Assembly: GCA_011390885.1 (NCBI GenBank)
Contig: JAABRO010000003.1
Span: forward strand, 1-64,000
Source: Gemmatimonas sp.
GTDB lineage: Bacteria; Gemmatimonadota; Gemmatimonadetes; Gemmatimonadales; Gemmatimonadaceae
Length of the DNA: 64,000 nt
Direction: 5' to 3'
In this document: positions 1,373-38,292 of the stretch, piece after piece
How the letters are laid out: each line of letters begins with the position of its first letter
Position numbering within the stretch: position 1 is the first letter of the stretch
Position numbers and translations under genes: made by a program
Notes under the pieces: generated by a model
Databases searched by the model: none
Told to the model about the DNA's origin: nothing
The model's input: the letters and a program-made list of their open reading frames with translations, nothing else

Positions 1373-3529
1373 GTGTCGTTCACGTCGTCGTTCCGTCCCT
1401 CCGTTTTCCCTCTCGTTCTGGCCCTGCTCGGCGCGTCGTTCGCGGCGTGGCCACCGGGTGCGCGGTCGCTCGACGCGCAGCCGGCCGGCGGAGCGCGGAC
1501 CGGCGGGCGCGCGCTCACGTTCGAGGACGCGACGGCGATGCGGCAGGTGTCGGAGCCGCACGTGTCGCCCGACGGACGGCTGGTGCTGTACTCGGTGCGC
1601 ACCACGAACCTCGCGGCGAATCGGCGCACGGCGCGCACGTACATCGTGCCGTCGGACGGCAGCACGACGCCGCGCGCGTTTCCCGACGACACCACGCCCT
1701 CCGCCGAGGCGCGTTTCAGTCCCGACGGACGGCGCGTGGCCTACGTGCATCAGGGGCAGCTGTGGGTGTCCAACATCGACGGCTCGGCGCGGCGCATGCT
1801 GACGCGGCTGTGGGGCGGCGCGTCGGGGCCGAAGTGGGCGCCGGGCGGTGATCGCATCGCGTTCTCGTCGCGCGTGTATCCCGGCTGCCGCACCGATGCG
1901 TGCAACGCCGACTCGGCGCTGCGCGTGGACCGTGCGCCCTCGCGCGCGCGCACCTACGACCAGCTGCTCTACCGCCACTGGGACCGGTGGGACGACGGCA
2001 CGCGCGCGCACCTGTTCGTGGTGGACCTCGCGCGCGCCGAACCGCGCGACCTGGTGCCGGGGCAGCGGCTGCATGTGCCGCCCATGCCGTTCGGCGGATC
2101 GGAGGCGTACGACTGGTCGCACGACGGGCAGGAGCTCGCGTTCACGGCGCGCGTGGAATCGCCCGACGCGGCGTGGACCACCGACCTGAACCTGTTCACC
2201 GTGCCGGTGACCGGCGGCGCACCGGTGGCGATCACCTCGGCGAATCGCGCGGGGGACATGCATCCGGTGTACTCGCGCGACGGCCGGTGGATCGCGTATG
2301 CATCGCAGCGCCGGCCCGGCTTCGAAGCGGCGAAGTGGCGGCTCATGCTGCACGATCGCACCACGCGCACGAGCCGTGAGGTGGCGCCCGGGTGGGACTA
2401 TCATGCGGATCGGTTCTACTTCACGCCCGACGGCCGCACGCTGCTGGTGGAGGCGCAGGACGAGGGGCGCACGGCGCTGTGGCGGCTCGCCATCGGGAAC
2501 GACGGCACGCTCGACGGCAATCCGGAGCGTCTCCTGCGCACGAACAACTCCACGCAGTCGTCGCTCGCATACCAGCTGGGCAGCGACGGCGCGCTCACGC
2601 TCGTGTGGGTGCGCGACGCGATGCACAAGCCGGCCGACCTGTGGATGGGGCGCTACGGCAGCGCGGGCGTGCGCAATCCGCGGCAGCTCACGCGCGAGAA
2701 CGACGGACTGCTCGCGCAGCTCGACCTGCGTCCGGCGCAGGACGTGGAGTACACCGGCGCGGGCGACACGAAGGTGCACGGCTTTCTCGTGCGTCCGCCG
2801 CAGTTCGACAGCACGCGCGCGTGGCCGATGCTGGTGCTCGTGCACGGCGGGCCGCAGGGCGCATGGCTCGACAGCTGGAACGCGCGCTGGAACGCGCAGC
2901 TGTTCGCGTCGATGGGCCTGGCGGTGCTCGCGCTCAACCCGCGTGGCAGCACGGGCTACGGCCAGCAGTTCATCGACGAGGTGTCGCGCGACTGGGGCGG
3001 CAAGGCATACGACGACCTCCTGCGCGGCGTGGACACGATGCTGGCCCGTCATCCGTGGCTGGACTCGGCACGCGTGGGCGCGGCAGGCGGTTCGTTTGGC
3101 GGCTACATGGTGAACTGGATGAACGGCTCCACGACGCGTTTCGCCGCGTACGCGTCGCACGCGGGCATCTTCAACCTCGAGCACTTTGCCGGCGCGACCG
3201 ACGAACTGTGGTTCCCCGAGTGGGAGTTCGGCGGCGCGTGGTGGAATCGCGCGGCGCAGTCGCAGAACTACCGTCGCTGGTCGCCGCACCTGCTGGCGGG
3301 ACGCATGCGCACGCCCACGCTCGTGCTGCACGGCGAGCAGGACTTCCGCGTGCCGTACACGGAGGGCACGGCGCTCTTCACGGCGCTGCAGCGGCAGCGT
3401 GTGCCGAGCCGGCTGGTGCTGTTCCCGGACGAGGGGCACTGGATCACGCGACCCACGAACCAGCAGCTGTGGTGGGACGAGATGTCGGCGTGGTTCACGC
3501 GCTGGCTGGTGCGCGACGAGGATCGCTGA
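1373..3529 (+). CDS. Exported S9-family prolyl oligopeptidase-like peptidase
   Basis: A 718-residue protein with a Sec-type signal peptide (hydrophobic residues ~10-27, probable cleavage before about residue 36). A WD40/TolB-like beta-propeller follows (about 60-450, with repeated SPDGR and SRDGRW motifs), then an alpha/beta hydrolase domain (about 470-715). The catalytic triad is visible: Ser574 in GGSFGGYM, Asp657 in HGEQDF and His689 in DEGHW. This architecture is that of acylaminoacyl-peptidase/dipeptidyl-peptidase-like S9 enzymes, which cleave short peptides; here the site is probably the periplasm. The start is GTG, chosen because it gives a clean signal peptide. The gene stands alone and is followed by a 10 bp hairpin. 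Confidence 0.93.
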   Translation: MSFTSSFRPSVFPLVLALLGASFAAWPPGARSLDAQPAGGARTGGRALTFEDATAMRQVSEPHVSPDGRLVLYSVRTTNLAANRRTARTYIVPSDGSTTPRAFPDDTTPSAEARFSPDGRRVAYVHQGQLWVSNIDGSARRMLTRLWGGASGPKWAPGGDRIAFSSRVYPGCRTDACNADSALRVDRAPSRARTYDQLLYRHWDRWDDGTRAHLFVVDLARAEPRDLVPGQRLHVPPMPFGGSEAYDWSHDGQELAFTARVESPDAAWTTDLNLFTVPVTGGAPVAITSANRAGDMHPVYSRDGRWIAYASQRRPGFEAAKWRLMLHDRTTRTSREVAPGWDYHADRFYFTPDGRTLLVEAQDEGRTALWRLAIGNDGTLDGNPERLLRTNNSTQSSLAYQLGSDGALTLVWVRDAMHKPADLWMGRYGSAGVRNPRQLTRENDGLLAQLDLRPAQDVEYTGAGDTKVHGFLVRPPQFDSTRAWPMLVLVHGGPQGAWLDSWNARWNAQLFASMGLAVLALNPRGSTGYGQQFIDEVSRDWGGKAYDDLLRGVDTMLARHPWLDSARVGAAGGSFGGYMVNWMNGSTTRFAAYASHAGIFNLEHFAGATDELWFPEWEFGGAWWNRAAQSQNYRRWSPHLLAGRMRTPTLVLHGEQDFRVPYTEGTALFTALQRQRVPSRLVLFPDEGHWITRPTNQQLWWDEMSAWFTRWLVRDEDR

Positions 3530-6301: not shown

Positions 6302-6479
6302 GTGAACACTCGAGTCTCGAGGCTCGTGGCTTGAGACTCGGGTCCGTGCTGCGCGATGCCTGACAGGAGTTGCAGCGTCGTAGTACAGGCTGGCTGTGCG
6401 AACATCGCGTCGGTTCGCACGAATCTCGCGGAACGGACTCGAGCCTGAAGCCACGAGGCTCGAGACTCGTGGGTTCAAC
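6302..6479. repeat. Palindromic element, family 2, copy 1
   Basis: Arms of about 46 bp (6302-6347 and 6433-6479) are near-perfect reverse complements. The outer ends are GTGAACACTCGAGTCTCGAGG and CGAGACTCGTGGGTTCAAC, and the inner ends pair GGTCCGT with ACGGAC. The 85-base middle shows nothing recognisable. The same arm sequence recurs at 8532-8717 and 16438-16600. Just upstream (6271-6301) is a short stretch, CAGCGGTTTCAGCTG, resembling the arm of the family 1 array. Together these fill most of the 279 bp gap between two same-strand genes. Confidence 0.85.
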
Positions 6480-8531: not shown

Positions 8532-8717
8532 GCAGTTGAACCCCCGAGACTCGCCCCTCGCCGCTTCCCGCTCGGGTCCGTTCGGTGTGATCTCGGCAAG
8601 GTTGCCATGATCTTCGCGCGTAGTCACGGAACTGCGACACGTGGCCTCATCGCTGACATCGCGCAGAACGGACCCGAGCGGGAAGCGGCGAGGGGCGAGT
8701 CTCGGGGGTTCAACTGC
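8532..8717. repeat. Palindromic element, family 2, copy 2, with perfect 52 bp arms
   Basis: Positions 8532-8583 and 8666-8717 are exact reverse complements over 52 bases. They start GCAGTTGAACCCCCGAGACT and end ACTCGGGGGTTCAACTGC. The 82-base loop holds nothing recognisable. Two degenerate half-arms follow, at about 8729-8749 (GCGAGACTCGGGAGTTCAA) and 8761-8777 (GAGCCGCGAGGGTTCAA). It lies between convergent genes, the M42 peptidase and nth. A perfect arm pair argues for recent formation or for active correction between the arms. Confidence 0.92.
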
Positions 8718-9683: not shown

Positions 9684-11501
9684 TCACAACGCCGTCACGC
9701 CGTCGGCCGGCACCTCGCACCGCGCGGTGGCCGAGTCGTAGGCCGCGATCACGTCGGCCGGATGCCGCCCCTCACGTCGCGCGCGCGCAAAGGCCATGAC
9801 CGCCTCGGCAGAACGCGTGTTGAGCACCTGCTCGGGCGACAGCCAACCCTTGCGCGCAATGCCCACGCCCAGCGTGACGTGGTCGAGTCCCTGCGGCGAG
9901 TGCGCGTCGGGGCCGATGGACACGAACGTGCCATGTCGCCGCGCAAGTCGACACAGACGCCAGTCGATGTCGAGCCGGTGCGGATCGGCGTTGAGTTCCA
10001 CCGCCACGCCGAGTTCGCCGGCGCGCGCGATCACCTCGCCCATGTCGATCGCGAACGGCTCACGCGTGAGCAGCAGGCGCCCGGTGGGATGACCGAGCAC
10101 GGTGAGATGCGGGTCCTCGAGTGCCTTCAGCACGCGATCGGTCATCTGCCGCTCGTTCATGCCGTAGCGGGTGTGCACCGAGGCGATGACGAAGTCGAAG
10201 CTGTCGAGCACCGCCGTGTCGTAGTCCACGCGCCCGCACGGCAGGATGTCGGCCTCGATGCCCTTGAGCACGCGGAAGTCCACACCGCGCGCCGCGAAGT
10301 CGGCGTTGAGCGCGTCGATTTCCTCGTGCTGCCGGAGGATCGCATCACGCGACAGTCCGCCGGCGTACGTGTTGGACTGCGAGTGATCGGACACGCCGAG
10401 ATAGCGCCAGCCGCGCGCGCGCGCCGCCTCGGCCATGTCGGCCACGGTCGCGCCGCCGTCGGAGTACTGCGAGTGACAGTGCATCGCGCCCGCGAGGTCG
10501 GGCTCGGTGATGAGCACCGGCAGCGTGCCGGCCGCGGCGGCGGCGACTTCGTCCGTGCCTTCGCGCAGCTCGGGCGCGATGGGCGCGAGGCCGAGCGTGC
10601 GATACAGGTCGGCTTCCGTGGAGATCGCGCAGGGCGCGCCCGATGCGTCACGCAGTTCGTCGCCCGCGAAGGTGTAACCGAGCGACGCCGCATGCTCCGT
10701 CACGAGCCGCACGTGCGCCTCGCTGCCGGTGGCGCGCCAGAGGGCGAGCGCGAACTGCTCAGGACGCACACAGGCGAGGTCGAGCCGCGTGCCATTGACG
10801 AAGCGCAACGTGACGATGCGTCCGCCACCACCCATGACCTCGCGCACGCCCTCGAGCTGCGCGAGCGCCGCCGCGACCACCGACGGCGTACCGCGCACCG
10901 AGGCCACGAGATCGACATCGCGCACGACTTCGCAACTGCGCCGCACCGAGCCCGCAATCGCGACGTCGAGCACATCAGGGTGCTCGGCCACGATCACGCG
11001 CAGCCGCTCGGCTTCGGCAGCGCCGTGCTCGTGCAGCACGAACGCACCGGCGTCACGCAGCGAGGCGATGCCCAGACGAATGCGCTCGGCGGTCTTCTCG
11101 CCGAACCGCGGGAGCGCGGCAAGGCGCCCGTCGGACGCGGCCGACTCGAGCTCCTGCAAGGTCTCGATGTGCAGCCCGTCGTGAATGAGGCGGATGCGCG
11201 CCGGCCCGAGCCCGGGCACGCGCAACATCTCGAGCAGCCCTTCGGGAGTCTCTTCCTGCAGTACCTCGAGCAGCAACGCGCTGTTGGTGTCCACGAGGTC
11301 GCGCACCACGTCGAACGTTTCCGCGCTGAGCCCGTCGGGCGCCGACGACGCGGCGACGGTTGCGCGCAGCTCGTCTGCGGACAACGCGGCCACGACACGC
11401 GACGCGCCCTGGAACCCGCGGACGCGCTCGGCCGGCTCGCCGTGGAGCTCGAGCAACGTGGCGATTTGCGCCAGGATGTGGGACGCGGCTCTGGGATCCA
11501 T
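9684..11501 (-). CDS. polX: DNA polymerase/3'-5' exonuclease PolX
   Basis: A 605-residue family X DNA polymerase with a C-terminal PHP domain. The N-terminal helix-hairpin-helix region (about 85-145: VPGLGPARI and RFGEKTAERI) is followed by the nucleotidyltransferase core, with GSVRR at 184-188 and the DVDLV metal aspartates at 195-199. The PHP nuclease begins HCHSQYSDG at 341 and continues with SDHSQSN, a GIEAD motif and DAHSP near the end. Such enzymes fill short gaps and trim 3' ends in base-excision repair, consistent with the neighbouring nth 31 bases downstream on the same strand; the two may be co-transcribed. The ATG has a TATCTT box six bases upstream. The promoter abuts repeat array B. 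Confidence 0.94.
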   Translation of the reverse strand: MDPRAASHILAQIATLLELHGEPAERVRGFQGASRVVAALSADELRATVAASSAPDGLSAETFDVVRDLVDTNSALLLEVLQEETPEGLLEMLRVPGLGPARIRLIHDGLHIETLQELESAASDGRLAALPRFGEKTAERIRLGIASLRDAGAFVLHEHGAAEAERLRVIVAEHPDVLDVAIAGSVRRSCEVVRDVDLVASVRGTPSVVAAALAQLEGVREVMGGGGRIVTLRFVNGTRLDLACVRPEQFALALWRATGSEAHVRLVTEHAASLGYTFAGDELRDASGAPCAISTEADLYRTLGLAPIAPELREGTDEVAAAAAGTLPVLITEPDLAGAMHCHSQYSDGGATVADMAEAARARGWRYLGVSDHSQSNTYAGGLSRDAILRQHEEIDALNADFAARGVDFRVLKGIEADILPCGRVDYDTAVLDSFDFVIASVHTRYGMNERQMTDRVLKALEDPHLTVLGHPTGRLLLTREPFAIDMGEVIARAGELGVAVELNADPHRLDIDWRLCRLARRHGTFVSIGPDAHSPQGLDHVTLGVGIARKGWLSPEQVLNTRSAEAVMAFARARREGRHPADVIAAYDSATARCEVPADGVTAL

Positions 11502-11507
11502 GGGGGA

Positions 11508-11513
11508 AAGATA
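11508..11513 (-). promoter_or_regulatory. -10-like box TATCTT, six bases before the polX ATG
   Basis: On the minus strand CCGCTATCTTTCCCCC leads directly to ATG, with the same core and spacing as the M42 gene. It abuts the entry motif of repeat array B. Confidence 0.5.
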
Positions 11514-12498
11514 GCGGAAACCGGCGGCGCTGAGGCGAGCGCTGCTGAGCGCCGGCAGGTTGCCAGCCCTGAGCGGTTTCAGCTGCGGAGCTGGCCAGCG
11601 AACCGCGGCATCGCGCGAGGGGCAACAGTGTGAGATGACGTCGGCTGCGGTGCGGAGCGAAGGCTCGGCTGATCAGCTTCGCCGCCTGCGGCGGCGCGGC
11701 TGGGCGGTGGCCCTCGACGGGGGCGCGCGCGAGCGACAAGGCCTGCCATGCCGCGATCGCGCCGGAGGCTGATCAGCTCCGCAGCTGGAAGGGCTCGGGG
11801 CTGCCGACCTGCAGGCGCTCGGCGATATCAGCCGGGTCGCGATGGTTTCCGAAAGCGGGTCGGTGCGCTGAAGGGCCGATCAGCTGGACAGCTGCGGGGC
11901 TCGTCCGCGCGCTGTGCTCCGCGCTGGCATCACCGAGCGCCGGCAGGTTGTCAGCCCTGAGCGGTTTCAGCTGCGGAGCTGGCCAGCGAACCGCGGCATC
12001 GCGCTAGGGGCAACAGGGTGGGATGACGTCGGCTGCGGTGCGGAGCGAAGGCTCGGCTGATCAGCTTCGCCGCCTGCGGCGGCGCGGCTGGGCGGTGGCC
12101 CTCGACGGGGGCGCGCGCGAGCGACAAGGCCTGCCATGCCGCGATCGCGCCGGAGGCTGATCAGCTTCGCAGCTGGAAGGGCTCGGGGCTGCCGACCTGC
12201 AGGCGCTCGGCGATATCAGCCGGGTCGCGATGGTTTCCGAAAGCGGGTCGGTGCGCTGAAGGGCCGATCAGCTGGTCAGCTGCGGGGCTCGTCCGCGCGC
12301 TGTGCTCCGCGCTGGCACCGCTGAGCGCCGGCAGGTGGTCAGCCCCGAGCGGTTTCAGCTGCGGAGCTGGCCAGCGAACCGCGGCATCGCGCGAGGGGCA
12401 GCAGGGTGAGATGCCGTCGGCCCCTGCGCGGGGCAACCACCCAGCTGATCAGCTTCGCAGCTGAAGCAGCTCAGGGCTGACCACCTGCCGGCGCTCAG
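11514..12498 (+). repeat. GATCAG/CAGCTG modular repeat array B (three inverted-arm modules, 388 bp period)
   Basis: A ~55 bp arm (GAGCGCCGGCAGGT...CAGCTGCGGAGCTGG) alternates in direct and inverted orientation. Direct arms are at 11547-11600, 11935-11988 and 12323-12376. Inverted arms are at 11765-11820, 12153-12208 and 12442-12496. The first two modules are long (about 274 bp plus a 114 bp linker, an exact 388 bp tandem period with few differences). The last is short (about 174 bp) because the middle section is missing. Inside are GCTGATCAGC, CGCCGCCTGCGGCGGCG and GCGATCGCG palindromes. Open frames do not keep phase across the 388 bp period, so it is judged non-coding. It fills the 1,041 bp gap between polX and the next leftward gene. 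Array C at 33419 has the same plan. Confidence 0.92.
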
Positions 12499-12542
12499 CG
12501 GCCCCAGCCCGAGCACCCTCCCCCGCCGAACCCCGTCCCCCT

Positions 12543-13001
12543 TCAGGATTCCACCCCCGCCAACCGCTTCGCCTGCTTCACCAACTCCACCATTTGCCGC
12601 TCCGTCAACTCCAACTCCTGCGTGGCCGCGTCGGCATCGAGCAACCCGCTGCGCATGGACACGCCGACCTGGTTCAAGTAGCGGATCTTGTCGAGCAGTT
12701 CGGTGGTGAGCGCGCGCAGCCCGTGGTAGCGCCGCTTCTCGGCGCTCGCGCGGCGGAAGCGTTGTTGCAGTTCGTCGGGGCGCAGACGGCGCCCGAGGGC
12801 GATGACTTCCGCCTCGGTGCGTCCGGGGAAGACGCCGCGATCGGGGATGCCCGCCGAGTCGGGGCCGGCGTCGTCGGCGAACCAGAGGCGGCCTACGTAT
12901 TCGATGCCATCGTGCGAGATCAGCAGCGTCGCGCGAAAGCGCCGCCCGTCGACGTCGAGGGTGGCGACCGAGGTGTGGGTGACCGCGCCGAACTGATACA
13001 T
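12543..13001 (-). CDS. Conserved-looking hypothetical protein
   Basis: A 152-residue cytoplasmic protein I cannot assign to a family. The N-terminal third (about 1-50) looks beta-rich, with alternating hydrophobic residues such as RFRATLLISHDGIEYVGRLW. The rest is helical and charged (LRPDELQQRFRRASAEKRR, then ELTERQMVELVKQAKRL). No metal or catalytic motif and no membrane segment is visible. It is the third leftward gene after the HDAC-like and alpha/beta hydrolase genes (45 bp gap), so it may be their co-transcribed partner. Its stop codon is 44 bp from repeat array B. Codon and GC usage match the neighbours, which supports it being real. Confidence 0.72.
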   Translation of the reverse strand: MYQFGAVTHTSVATLDVDGRRFRATLLISHDGIEYVGRLWFADDAGPDSAGIPDRGVFPGRTEAEVIALGRRLRPDELQQRFRRASAEKRRYHGLRALTTELLDKIRYLNQVGVSMRSGLLDADAATQELELTERQMVELVKQAKRLAGVES

Positions 13002-16437: not shown

Positions 16438-16600
16438 GCGGTTGAACCCCGTGGCTCGAGGCTCGCCCCTTGGCCCTTGCCGGCCGGGCAGGCGGGATCG
16501 GTGCGATGAGCCCGGACGGGCGTTCCGGCACCCGGCGGCCATCGCCCGGAACGGACCCGAGCGGGAAGCGGCGAGCCTCGAGCCTCGGGGGGTCGACTGC
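16438..16600. repeat. Palindromic element, family 2, copy 3 (diverged)
   Basis: The outer arms (16438-16467 and 16570-16600) match the family: GCGGTTGAACCCCG at the left, with CTCGAGGCTCGCC inside, and GGCGAGCCTCGAGCCTCGG at the right. The right inner arm (GGAACGGACCCGAGCGGGAA, 16549-16568) equals copy 2 exactly, but its left partner has decayed. A secondary stem, CGTTCCGG/CCGGAACG, lies at 16521-16553. It sits between two same-strand genes and ends 33 bp before a promoter box. Confidence 0.8.
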
Positions 16601-33418: not shown

Positions 33419-34385
33419 CGTGTTCCGCGCTGGCACCACCGAGCGCCTGCAGGTGATCAGCCCTGAGCTGGTTCAGCGGCGGAGCTGGGCAGCGAACGGC
33501 GGCATTGCGCGAGGGGCAACAGGATGAGACGACGTCGGCTGCGGAGCGGAGCGGAGGCTCGGCTGCTCAGCTTCGCCGCCTGCGGCGGCGCGGCTGGGGG
33601 GTGGCACTCGACGAGGGGGCGCGAGAGCGACAAGGCCTGCCATGCCGCGATCGCGCGGGAGGCTGAACAGCTCCGCAGCTGGAAGGGCTCGGGGCTGGGG
33701 ACCTGCCGGCGCTCGGCGGGGCCGGCTCGGGTCGCGATGGTTTCCGCAAGCGGGTCGGTGCGCTGGTCAGCTGGACAGCCGCGGGGCTCGCCCGCGCGCC
33801 GTGCTGCACGCGAGCGCCGCGGGTCGCCTGCAGGTGAACAGCCCTGAGCTGCTTCAGCTGCAGAGCTGGCCAGCGAACCGCGGCATCGCGCGAGGAGCAG
33901 CAGGGTGAGCCGGCGTCGGCCCCTGCGCGGAGCAACCACCCAGCTGAGCAGCTGCGCCGCCTGAGGCGGCGCGGCTGGGCGGTCGCCCTCGATGAGGCCA
34001 CACGTGAGCGGAGTGGCCCGCCACGCCGCGATCATGCAGGAGGCTGATCAGCTCCGCCGCTGGAACGGCTCGGGGCTGTGAACCTGCAGGCGCTCGGCGA
34101 TGTCAGCCGGGGTCGCGATGGTTTCCGAAAGCGGGTCGGTGCGCTGAAGGCTGGTCAGCTGGACAGCTGTGGGGCTCGCCCGCGCGCCGTGCTCCGCGCC
34201 AGCGCCGCGGATCGCCTGCAGGTGAACAGCGCTGAGCTGCTTCAGCTGCAGAGCTGGCCAGCGAACCGCGGCATCGCGCGAGGAGCAGCAGTGTGAGCTG
34301 CTGTCAGCACCGGCGCGGAGCAGCCACCCAGCTGATCAGCTGCTCGGCTGAAACGGCTCACAGCTGCCCACCTGCAGGCGTTCAG
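33419..34385 (+). repeat. GATCAG/CAGCTG modular repeat array C (long-long-short modules)
   Basis: The array has the same architecture as the one at 11514-12498. Direct arms begin at 33441, 33822 and 34210; inverted arms are at 33659-33714, 34040-34095 and 34330-34385. Periods are 381 and 388 bp, and the last module is again the short one. Arm sequence has drifted (GCCTGCAGGTGATCAG in place of GCCGGCAGGTTGCCAG), often with matching changes in the opposite arm. The core GCTGATCAGC, CAGCTG and CGCCGCC/GGCGGCG palindromes persist. No coding signal is credible. It fills most of the 1,084 bp between two leftward genes; its short end is 10 bp from the PDZ-protein stop codon. Confidence 0.92.
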
Positions 34386-34395
34386 CCCCCTCCGC

Positions 34396-35457: not shown

Positions 35458-37920
35458 CTACACGACGAGGTTGAGCAGCCGCCCCTTCACGTAGATGACC
35501 TTCTTCGGCTCGCCCGTGACGAACTTGGCGATCGTCGGGTCGTCGAGCGCCGCGCGCACCACGTCCTCCTGTGTGGCATCGGCCGCCACCTGCACGCGGC
35601 CACGCGTCTTGCCCTGCACCTGCACCGCGACCTCGACGGTGTCCTCCACCATGAGCGCGGCATCCCACGCCGGCCACCCGGCGTCGAACACGCTGCCCGT
35701 GTGCCCGAGCTGTTCCCAGCACTCTTCGGCGAGGTGCGGCGCGTACGGCGCGACGAGCTGCACGAGCGGCGCGACTTCGTCGACGTGCACGGTGCGCTCG
35801 GCACGACGCAGCACGTTCATGTACTCCATCATGGCGGCGATTGCCGTGTTGTACGCGAGCGCGCCGGTGTCCTCGCCCACCTTGCGGATGGTCTGGTGCA
35901 GCTTGCGCATGACATCCGCATCGGGCGTGCCTTCACGATCCGCGTCGCGCACCGCCGCCCAGAGGCGATCGAGGAAACGACGCACGCCGCTGATGCCCTG
36001 CGAACGGAAGTCGCCGCCCTCCTGGTACGGCCCCAGGAACATGAGGTACATGCGGAAGGAGTCCGCGCCCCACTCGTTCACGTACTCGTCGGGGTTGATG
36101 ACGTTCCCCTTCGTCTTCGACATCTTCGCGCCATCGCGAATGATGAGGCCGTGCGCGCGGAAGCGCGTGAACGGCTCCTCGAAGTCGAGATGGCCACCAT
36201 CCTTGAGCGCCATCGTCACGAAGCGCGAATACAGCAGGTGCAGCACCGCGTGCTCGTTGCCGCCGATGTACGAATCCACCGGGAGCCAGCGCTGCGTGAT
36301 GCCCGCGTCGAACGCGACGTCCTCGCGGCGCGCGTTCGGGTAGCGCAGGAAGTACCACGCGCTGTCGAGGAACGTGTCGGACACGTCGGTCTCGCGGCGC
36401 GCGTTCCCGCCGCAGGTCGGGCACGGCACGTTGTACCACTCGGCGTGCCGCGCGAGCGGCGAGACGCCGGAGTCATCGGGCTTGAAGTCGGCGATGTGCG
36501 GCAGCTCGACCGGCAGCTGTTCCTCGGGCACGGGCACCGTGCCGCAGGTGTCGCAGTACACGATGGGAATGGGCGGGCCCCAGTAGCGCTGCCGCGACAC
36601 GCACCAGTCGTGCAGGCGGAAGTTCACTACCGGCTCGGCGTGTCCGCCAGCGCGCAGCCACTCGGTGACCTTCGCCTTGGCATCGGCGACCGGCGTGCCG
36701 TCGAACGCGCCCGAGTTCACGAGGTGCGCCGCGGCGTCGTCGGTGAACGCGGCCTCGAGCGGCGTATTCGCGTCCGCGTCACCGCCCGCCACCACGCGCT
36801 TGATCACCGCCTCGCGCGACAGGCCGCACTGCGACGCGAACTGCGCGCCGAGCACCTCGGCGAACTCGAAGTCGCGCTCGTCGTGGCCAGGCACGGCCAT
36901 GATCGCGCCGGTGCCGTACTGCATGAGCACATAGTCGGCAATCCAGATCGGCACGCGCGCGCCGGTGGCCGGGTTGATCGCCCAGCTGCCGGTGAACTCG
37001 CCCGTCTTCTCGGTGACCGACTTGCGCGAGACGAGATCCTGCTTCGTGGTGCGCTCCTGGTACGCGCGCACGGCACTGACGCGATCGGGCGTGGTGAGCA
37101 CGTCCACGAGCGGATGCTCGGGCGCCAGCACGAGGTACGTCGCGCCGAAGATCGTGTCGGGGCGCGTGGTGAACACGCGCACCTGCGCATCGCGCGCATC
37201 GACCCGGAAGGAGACTTCCGCGCCTTCGCTGCGGCCGATCCAGTTGCGCTGCGCGCTCTTCGTGACCTCCGACCAGTCGAGCGTGTCGAGGTTGGTGAGC
37301 AGCCGCTCGGCGTACTGCCCGATGCGGAAGAACCACTGCTCGAGGAAGCGCTGCTCGACCACGGTGCCGCATCGCTCGCACGCGCCGCCCTCGACCTGCT
37401 CGTTGGCGAGCACGGTCTTGCAGCTCGGGCACCAGTTCACCGCGGCGGCCTTCTTGTACGCGAGCCCCTGCTTGTGCAGCTGCAGGAACACCCACTGCGT
37501 CCAGCGATAGTAGTCGCGCTGCGACGTGTCCACCTTGTAGCGCCAGTCCACCATGAGGCCGGCGCGCTCGAGCTGGCGCTGGAAGTTGCCGACGTTCTTC
37601 GGCGTCAGCTCCATGGGGTGCGCGCCGATCTTCAGCGCGTAGTTCTCGGAGTGGATGCCGAACGCATCGTAGCCGAGCGGCTGGAAGACGGTGTGGCCGA
37701 GCAGCCGGTGATAGCGCGCGGAGATGTCGCTGCCGGTGAAGGCGAAGAGGTTCCCGACGTGCAGCCCTTCGGCGCTCGGGTACGGGAACATCATGAGCGC
37801 ATAGAACGGACGCTCGCCGTTGGCGAGGTCGACGTGATTGGTGCCGCGCTCGGCCCAGGCGCGCTGCCAGCGCGCTTCGACGGCCTGCGGATCGTAGGCG
37901 ACGGGTTCGGTCGTGTGCAT
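35458..37920 (-). CDS. leuS: Leucyl-tRNA synthetase
   Basis: An 820-residue class Ia aminoacyl-tRNA synthetase charging tRNA-Leu. The HIGH motif appears as HVGN in PYPSAEGLHVGNL (about 47-59) and KMSKS as KMSKTKGN (about 600). Zinc-finger cysteines are at CPSCKTVLANEQ...CERCG (about 160-180), CDTCG and CPTCGGN (about 455-505), and the CP1 editing domain lies between. The C-terminal anticodon-binding and leucine-specific parts are complete, ending KVIYVKGRLLNLVV. A TATGTT box sits six bases before the ATG, with GGGAGG filling that gap. Confidence 0.97.
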   Translation of the reverse strand: MHTTEPVAYDPQAVEARWQRAWAERGTNHVDLANGERPFYALMMFPYPSAEGLHVGNLFAFTGSDISARYHRLLGHTVFQPLGYDAFGIHSENYALKIGAHPMELTPKNVGNFQRQLERAGLMVDWRYKVDTSQRDYYRWTQWVFLQLHKQGLAYKKAAAVNWCPSCKTVLANEQVEGGACERCGTVVEQRFLEQWFFRIGQYAERLLTNLDTLDWSEVTKSAQRNWIGRSEGAEVSFRVDARDAQVRVFTTRPDTIFGATYLVLAPEHPLVDVLTTPDRVSAVRAYQERTTKQDLVSRKSVTEKTGEFTGSWAINPATGARVPIWIADYVLMQYGTGAIMAVPGHDERDFEFAEVLGAQFASQCGLSREAVIKRVVAGGDADANTPLEAAFTDDAAAHLVNSGAFDGTPVADAKAKVTEWLRAGGHAEPVVNFRLHDWCVSRQRYWGPPIPIVYCDTCGTVPVPEEQLPVELPHIADFKPDDSGVSPLARHAEWYNVPCPTCGGNARRETDVSDTFLDSAWYFLRYPNARREDVAFDAGITQRWLPVDSYIGGNEHAVLHLLYSRFVTMALKDGGHLDFEEPFTRFRAHGLIIRDGAKMSKTKGNVINPDEYVNEWGADSFRMYLMFLGPYQEGGDFRSQGISGVRRFLDRLWAAVRDADREGTPDADVMRKLHQTIRKVGEDTGALAYNTAIAAMMEYMNVLRRAERTVHVDEVAPLVQLVAPYAPHLAEECWEQLGHTGSVFDAGWPAWDAALMVEDTVEVAVQVQGKTRGRVQVAADATQEDVVRAALDDPTIAKFVTGEPKKVIYVKGRLLNLVV

Positions 37921-37932: not shown

Positions 37933-37992
37933 GCCGATTTTGGGGGTGTGCGGTCCGGCCGTTTTGTACGGTGTGGCGGCCCCGGCATGGGC

Positions 37993-38077
37993 ACGCGGGG
38001 CGCGGCCACTGCCGGTCCGGGCGCGCCGGGAGCGGCGGGGCCGCCCGGCGCTGACCGGCAGACGCCGCGCCCCGCGT
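37993..38077. repeat. Nested GC-rich palindrome (family 3) upstream of leuS
   Basis: Outer arms ACGCGGGGCGCGGC (37993-38006) and GCCGCGCCCCGCGT (38064-38077), middle arms CTGCCGGT/ACCGGCAG and inner arms GCGCCGGG/CCCGGCGC form three concentric stems. CCACTGCCGG and CGGCAGACGCCGCGCC are shared with the palindrome at 4304-4412. With the next two entries it occupies most of the 398 bp gap between the asparaginase-like gene and leuS. Confidence 0.75.
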
Positions 38078-38138
38078 CCCCGAGCCAGGTCCGACGGTGG
38101 TGCTCGGGCGGCTCAGCGCAGGAGATTGCGCGCGCACA

Positions 38139-38167
38139 CTGCCGCGCGGCCAGCCCGCCGTGCGGCA
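38139..38167. repeat. Small hairpin between two large palindromes
   Basis: CTGCCGCGCGG pairs with CCGTGCGGCAG (one mismatch) around a 7-base loop. It lies between the 37993 and 38175 palindromes and may be part of the same structure. Confidence 0.5.
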
Positions 38168-38174
38168 GATCAGG

Positions 38175-38292
38175 GGTCGGTCACGGGGCGGGGACCGACG
38201 CGCCGTCGGTCGGCCAGCGCCGGGCGGCCCTGGCCGCTCCCGGCGCGCTCGGGCCGACCGTTGGGCGCGGAGGCCCCGTCCCGGGACCGACC
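38175..38292. repeat. Nested GC-rich palindrome (family 3), second copy in the leuS upstream gap
   Basis: Outer arms at 38175-38193 (GGTCGGTCACGGGGCGGGG) and 38274-38292 pair with two mismatches. Inner arms at 38208-38224 and 38239-38259 (GGTCGGCC..GCGCCGGG with CCCGGCGC..GGCCGACC) pair again. It ends 26 bp before the stop codon of the leftward asparaginase-like gene. No T-run is present. Confidence 0.7.

Follow-up and report, generated by a model that had tools for sequence, protein, structure and literature searches.

A tandem array of giant quasi-palindromes upstream of polX in Gemmatimonas belongs to a dispersed, probably mobile, foldback element family

In a Gemmatimonas sp. genome, the spacer upstream of polX, a gene of the DNA polymerase X family, is filled by a long block of alternating inverted repeats, which raises the question of what kind of sequence has come to occupy it. 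The window analyzed here is a stretch of 64,000 nucleotides (contig JAABRO010000003.1), and its own genome, referred to here as G000, is a Gemmatimonadaceae MAG of 4.07 Mb in 62 contigs that is 95% complete. The original prediction, made from the letters alone, could name no known repeat class for the block and offered three options: a MITE-like element, a structured RNA, or a site for a nucleoid or partition protein. Our data favor the first of these, and we put the probability at roughly 0.6 that the block (array 1) consists of tandem copies of a MITE-like foldback mobile element that is non-autonomous and carries no genes. The family of approximately 270-bp elements to which it belongs is apparently undescribed, and the enzyme that mobilizes them is putative.

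We found that array 1 consists of three tandem foldback units (Table 1) that start at 11551, 11939, and 12327, so that the predicted period of exactly 388 bp is seen twice. Units 1 and 2 are 98% identical across 300 bp, and the tandem score of the array is 1665. Each unit is a giant quasi-palindrome; two are long (267 bp) and one is short (167 bp), the short unit 3 jumping from the first GCTGATCAGCT to the second GCTGATCAGCT with the 100 bp in between deleted. Six arms alternating in orientation are present, as predicted, and all were located; they are 68-81 nt long, with a complementarity of 77-87%. The array is real but extends slightly beyond the limits first drawn (11514-12498), and its third module has lost 100 bp. 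The units have GCCTGCAGG...CCTGCAGGCG at their ends. The hairpin folding proposed for the modules goes beyond chance for unit 1 (z = -4.5) and for the short unit 3 (z = -11.0), with none of 200 dinucleotide shuffles of each being as extreme. A repetitive protein gene was ruled out: 388 is not a multiple of 3 (388 = 3 x 129 + 1), so the reading frame is lost over the period, as had been claimed. Across the element gaps all frames have a negative coding score, with no credible gene within the elements.

Table 1. Positions in the window of the array 1 features, the flanking genes, and the other element copies.
Feature	Position	Strand	Remarks
polX (DNA polymerase X family)	9684..11501	-	protein conserved by tblastn; outside the element
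up1, conserved gene upstream of polX	12543..13001	-	outside the element
Array 1	11516..12516	+	three units, which take up the spacer from gene 12543-13001 to polX
Unit 1, long form (267 bp)	11551..11817	+	251.6 bits with model R1, itself built from unit 1
Unit 2, long form (267 bp)	11939..12205	+	model R1 match; near-copy of unit 1
Unit 3, short form (167 bp)	12327..12493	+	model R1 match; left out of the building of R1
Unit 1 5' arm	11544..11615	+	inverted-repeat pair I8
Unit 1 3' arm, inverted	11752..11832	-	inverted-repeat pairs I1 and I8
Unit 2 5' arm	11923..12003	+	inverted-repeat pair I4
Unit 2 3' arm, inverted	12140..12220	-	inverted-repeat pair I4
Unit 3 5' arm	12308..12375 (six-arm listing: 12308-12391)	+	inverted-repeat pair I6, 87% complementary
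Unit 3 3' arm, inverted	12444..12511	-	inverted-repeat pair I6
Unit 1 inner core	11596..11770	+	part conserved with G002; model R2
Linker, units 1-2	11818..11938	+	holds GGTTTCCG and CAGCTG/GATCAG words
Array 2	33425..34386	+	85% identical to array 1 over 950 bp; order long-long-short, as in array 1
Unit 4, long form	33445..33711	+	model R1 match
Unit 5, long form	33826..34092	+	model R1 match
Unit 6, short form	34214..34380	+	model R1 match
Copy cut by the contig start	1..213	-	left end supplies the last codons of gene 214-1215

Searching G000 at the DNA level gave 46 matches to the array. A covariance model (R1), built from the 17 long copies of G000 with the short forms set aside, recovered these 17 as full copies, the two short forms (at 117 and 107 bits), the copy truncated where the contig begins, and a small number of weak fragments. 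Together these are spread over 7 contigs, and array 1 is thus not unique but part of a set of about 20 dispersed copies. All element copies examined sit in intergenic gaps. Two of the occurrences within the window, array 2 and the cut copy, had escaped the original prediction, which saw array 1 only. Given their 85% identity and shared unit order, the two arrays indicate a past duplication or copying event that took in an entire array. At the cut copy, the last codons of gene 214-1215 (RGNRRS) run into the element end sequence GCGGAAACCGGCGGAGCTGA, which is also found at the left end of array 1. Outside G000, a DNA identity search of 40 relatives returned only short weak matches, and none in G002, a genome of the same genus. 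No match to the element was found in the plasmid sequences searched, nor in viral contigs searched with the exact core pattern. The original prediction could name no known repeat class for the array, and our searches likewise matched it to no IS or MITE already described and to no Rfam family.

The gene order up2-up1-polX is kept in many Gemmatimonadaceae, which allows the occupied spacer to be compared with its counterparts. The up1-polX spacer measures 58, 62, and 43 bp in the three nearest relatives (L055, L056, and L057, respectively) versus 1041 bp in the window. Likewise, at mnmE a genome of the same genus (G004) has a 10-bp spacer between convergent stop codons versus 359 bp with one element in G000. 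Spacers are therefore occupied in one genome and short in its relatives at two loci, polX and mnmE. The simplest reading would be a gain in G000; with spacers in the relatives that have diverged beyond alignment, an ancestral element since lost from them may instead account for the difference, and the exact insertion points are putative. As a separate observation, nearly all relatives have a TATCTTT/TAGATTT motif, resembling a leaderless promoter, approximately 7 bases ahead of the ATG of polX, and in the window (11502-11515) the array stands just upstream of it.

We next considered the orientation of the neighboring genes. At the 12 loci where both neighbors are visible, 7 gene pairs are convergent, 3 are co-directional (including both arrays of the window), and 2 are divergent. 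If about one quarter were expected to be convergent at random, the binomial chance of at least 7 of 12 would be about 0.014, a rough figure. Several copies also start close to a stop codon, no more than tens of bases away. A strong hairpin that follows a stop codon is a usual mark of transcription termination, and this arrangement would therefore fit elements that act as bidirectional transcription barriers or terminators at gene ends. We regard such a role as improbable, since five of the loci are divergent or co-directional and a scan of array 1 found no terminator with a T-tract. Furthermore, the size and tandem copies of the elements far exceed what termination needs, relatives do without elements at the same loci, and insertion tolerance explains the gene-end bias equally well.

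The fold itself was analyzed in an alignment of the G000 copies (A1). Nearly the entire element lies on one mirror register, in which column i pairs with column 274-i. The outer stem extends to column 65, columns 66-109 are unpaired, an inner stem occupies columns 110-126, and an apical GCCGCC-GGCGGC hairpin sits slightly off the axis. The consensus structure comprises 74 pairs, with standard pairs in 94.7% of cells, and 13 of the 74 pairs are changed on both sides within G000 alone. Five pairing measures lie above all or nearly all shuffles, and controls with slid partners are only 27-46% paired. In a strand-neutral register, G-U pairs outnumber A-C mismatches 97 to 21 when G000 copies are read as + strand RNA, and 22 columns to 3, although the copies are not independent. 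The unpaired middle, used as a control, has no such G-U excess (58 versus 93). This excess would suit folding of the + strand, whether as RNA or as single-stranded DNA. Three of the 17 copies (C18a, C18b, and C56) show the reversed bias and a better fold on the opposite strand, and the sister genome G002 shows no bias (11 G-U versus 19 A-C). Since the test looks convincing in G000 alone but fails in G002, we do not take it as proof of RNA.

These results bear on whether the elements are a structured noncoding RNA family of approximately 270 nt, expressed from the spacers and kept paired by selection on the RNA. The 74-pair consensus with its double changes (13 pairs in G000 and 37 relative to G002), the G-U excess, and the inner hairpin and core kept between the two species all speak for it, and the structured RNA option of the original prediction is the main rival reading; its weak side is a strand bias that is confined to G000 and reversed in three copies there. 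A fixed role as RNA is hard to reconcile with a patchy distribution and with dispersal among differing gene neighborhoods, and strand-specific folding of single-stranded DNA would leave an identical bias. Array 1 contains neither a consensus promoter nor a consensus terminator. Rfam gave no match at gathering score, and a lax threshold gave one chance-level match (E 0.16, 24.8 bits against a cut-off of 90), by which a known RNA family was ruled out. Template switching can also make and maintain hairpins without any RNA function (PMC8794818). Because covariation in such repeats can have either origin, template switching or selection (PMC8794818), we do not claim an RNA function and consider this explanation unlikely. 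For annotators, strong covariation in intergenic repeats should not by itself be taken as evidence of a functional RNA.

We found homologues of the element in the sister genome G002, a fragmented MAG that is 64% complete, only by means of covariance model R1 (up to 116 bits). The palindromic word CAGCTGATCAGCTG is frequent there, with 13 sites in this 64%-complete genome. Alignment A4 indicates that the inner hairpin and core are conserved between G000 and G002, while the arm sequences are unrelated yet still pair. Among 481 pair cells of G002, 291 are as in G000, 24 have changed on one side, 116 have changed on both sides, and 50 are broken. Double changes relative to G000 affect 37 of the 74 pairs, and approximately 90% of cells are paired compared to 27-46% with partners slid; the G002 alignment was fitted to the structure, and these figures lean towards it. 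Pairing has thus been kept despite turnover of the sequence. A model of the core (R2, 22 sequences), applied with strict filters that may lose weak matches, found the core in G000 and G002 only among 179 genomes of the family. The core is therefore present in two of five species of the genus and absent from three, and this restriction suggests that its gain or loss was recent.

The structure of the arms is informative as to how the palindromes arose. The outer ends of G002 units are long and symmetric, and the word CACGGAAACGGGTGG recurs in them. At one G002 locus (C379) the order of word variants is mirrored between the two arms, and at another (C57; L173 1323-1839) both arms carry a 60-bp tandem duplication, each duplicating its own version; both arrangements are provisional, coming from a fragmented MAG. 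The arms of C57 are approximately 20% different from each other while the copies inside one arm are nearly identical. Since the duplications differ, one arm is not a simple copy of the other.

Such palindromes might have formed and grown where they stand through errors of replication (template switching or unequal exchange), with no transposition. Mirrored word repeats in the arms speak for this process, and unrelated giant palindromes are common in Gemmatimonadaceae: self-complementary segments above a fixed score number 9 in 233 kb around polX in this family versus 0 in 458 kb around the same gene in other phyla, counts that are indicative since they cover one neighborhood and base composition differs between the groups. 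Shuffles of the window gave no self-complementary segment above this score. The palindrome families of Gemmatimonadaceae are unrelated in sequence. We give an origin in place little credence, as sequence must have been copied from one site to another to yield approximately 20 homologous copies at unrelated loci, and the C57 duplications differ between arms. Binding sites for a nucleoid-associated or partition protein are a still more remote explanation. The array does hold repeated palindromic words (GCTGATCAGC, CAGCTG, and GCGATCGC), but elements occur at about a dozen loci, what is conserved is a large folded unit rather than a short site, and the absence from three of five species makes the partition-site option of the original prediction unlikely.

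Of the options first proposed, the MITE-like element is thus the best supported, by approximately 20 dispersed intergenic copies, by the spacers at two loci, and by occurrence in two of five species. Under this reading, one unit would be a quasi-palindrome of approximately 270 bp, with two arms of approximately 65 bp, a branched inner core, and variable outer words. An enzyme supplied in trans would presumably insert copies into intergenic spacers. Unequal recombination or slippage could then produce tandem arrays, and deletions from one internal repeat to another could produce the short forms. Pairing may be kept since movement would act on the folded strand, with template switching between the arms contributing.

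We searched for candidate enzymes in two transposase families, Y1 and Tn3, out of the many classes that exist. The Y1/RAYT transposase (PF01797) is absent from G000 and from all four other genomes of the genus, while control genomes were positive, and a RAYT/IS200-605 mover was ruled out on this basis (G000 being 95% and G002 64% complete). A Tn3-type MITE or TIME, suggested by GGGG at the G002 ends, was ruled out by the absence of the Tn3-family transposase (PF01526) from all five genomes of the genus. In G000, DNA and model searches found no non-element locus with homologous ends that might be an autonomous parent. In the incomplete G002, sites matching the end word with no or one mismatch were elements, contig ends carrying element pieces, and one further site (C298). 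No target-site duplication was recognized among ends that vary and empty sites that have diverged.

We compared the array element with known systems. Like REPINs and the REPIN/BIME clusters of Pseudomonas and E. coli, it is extragenic and gene-free, with two inverted arms around a spacer, a predicted hairpin, and tandem clusters; REPIN clusters of SBW25 are ordered tandem series in which nearly identical units recur together with their flanks, reaching four units and more than 700 bp (PMC3116915). A REPIN is a pair of REPs of approximately 20-40 bp, whereas the array element is several times larger, at approximately 270 bp with 65-bp arms, a branched core, and approximately 20 copies. REP units of 20-40 bp carry a GTAG or CGTC end tag (PMC3733652), and the arms here, at 65-80 bp, fall outside this description. 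The array behaves as a REPIN cluster does, yet with no RAYT/Y1 transposase in G000 or G002 it falls outside that class by the RAYT criterion. TIR repeats mobilized by TIRYTs, which are Y1 transposases, form moderately abundant long-TIR families, some of them outside Proteobacteria (PMC3733652); the array element is likewise a moderately abundant family of long TIR repeats, but Y1 transposases are missing from G000 and the genus.

Bacterial MITEs (e.g., ERIC, NEMIS, RUP, and Nezha) are defined as 70-300 bp in size, without coding capacity, located next to genes, and strongly folding (PMC3733652). The array element agrees in size and coding content, with a core of 267 bp, inverted ends, and no credible ORF. 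It differs in that the whole unit is one quasi-palindrome, while MITE TIRs are 15-30 bp, and in that no parental IS or target duplication was found. Eukaryotic foldback (FB) elements are kilobase-sized and have very long inverted repeats made partly of short tandem subrepeats. The G002 copies likewise have long inverted repeats with short tandem subrepeats, a likeness of design, whereas FB elements are eukaryotic and far larger. Structured RNAs in Rfam share a branched covarying fold with the array element, which matched none of them at gathering score. The literature searched contained no paper on such repeats in Gemmatimonadota, a phylum that PMC13155455 and PMC3733652 do not mention.

If the mobile-element reading is right, a large foldback form joins the small set of bacterial miniature mobile elements, and it does so from a phylum for which the literature searched offers no such repeat, and in the absence of RAYT, the enzyme behind REPINs. 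The G000/G002 pair is also a natural experiment, in which long hairpins keep pairing while both arms change, and comparing the two could separate selection on a folded strand from template-switch repair. A bolder and more doubtful proposal would place these giant palindromes in a new bacterial foldback class of their own, spread by a putative enzyme that would recognize a folded single strand (DNA or RNA) by its shape. The sequence of the arms could then be replaced entirely from one sister species to the next, with the fold and inner core retained, and unrelated families of the same design would populate Gemmatimonadaceae.

Other long palindromes were observed along the way. A second foldback family, unrelated to the first and approximately 170 bp long, with CTCGAG-type words and GTTGAAC/GTTCAAC near its ends, has three copies in a 10-kb part of the window (6303-6477, 8532-8717, and 16447-16600). 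A third palindromic region, rich in GC (37977-38269), precedes leuS (35458-37920) on its upstream side. G002 has a palindrome plainly related to it at the equivalent location (L042, about 3000-3400), which indicates that this one is shared by position. In the polX upstream spacer, where the window has array 1, other Gemmatimonadaceae (L059, L067, and L078) carry unrelated long hairpins with word repeats (GAACTGC and GATCTGAG). A hairpin unit of approximately 130 bp, CTGCCGTCTGC...GCAGACGGCAG, forms tandem arrays common to several Gemmatimonadaceae bins (L066 7431-8148, L067 5075-5412, and L064 3262-3465). Finally, G002 (L038-L041) contains other hairpin arrays with a period of approximately 370-400 bp, in which arms of CTGCAGCTGTTCAGGGACCATCCAGCCCGCACCAGCTCC alternate with a second hairpin.
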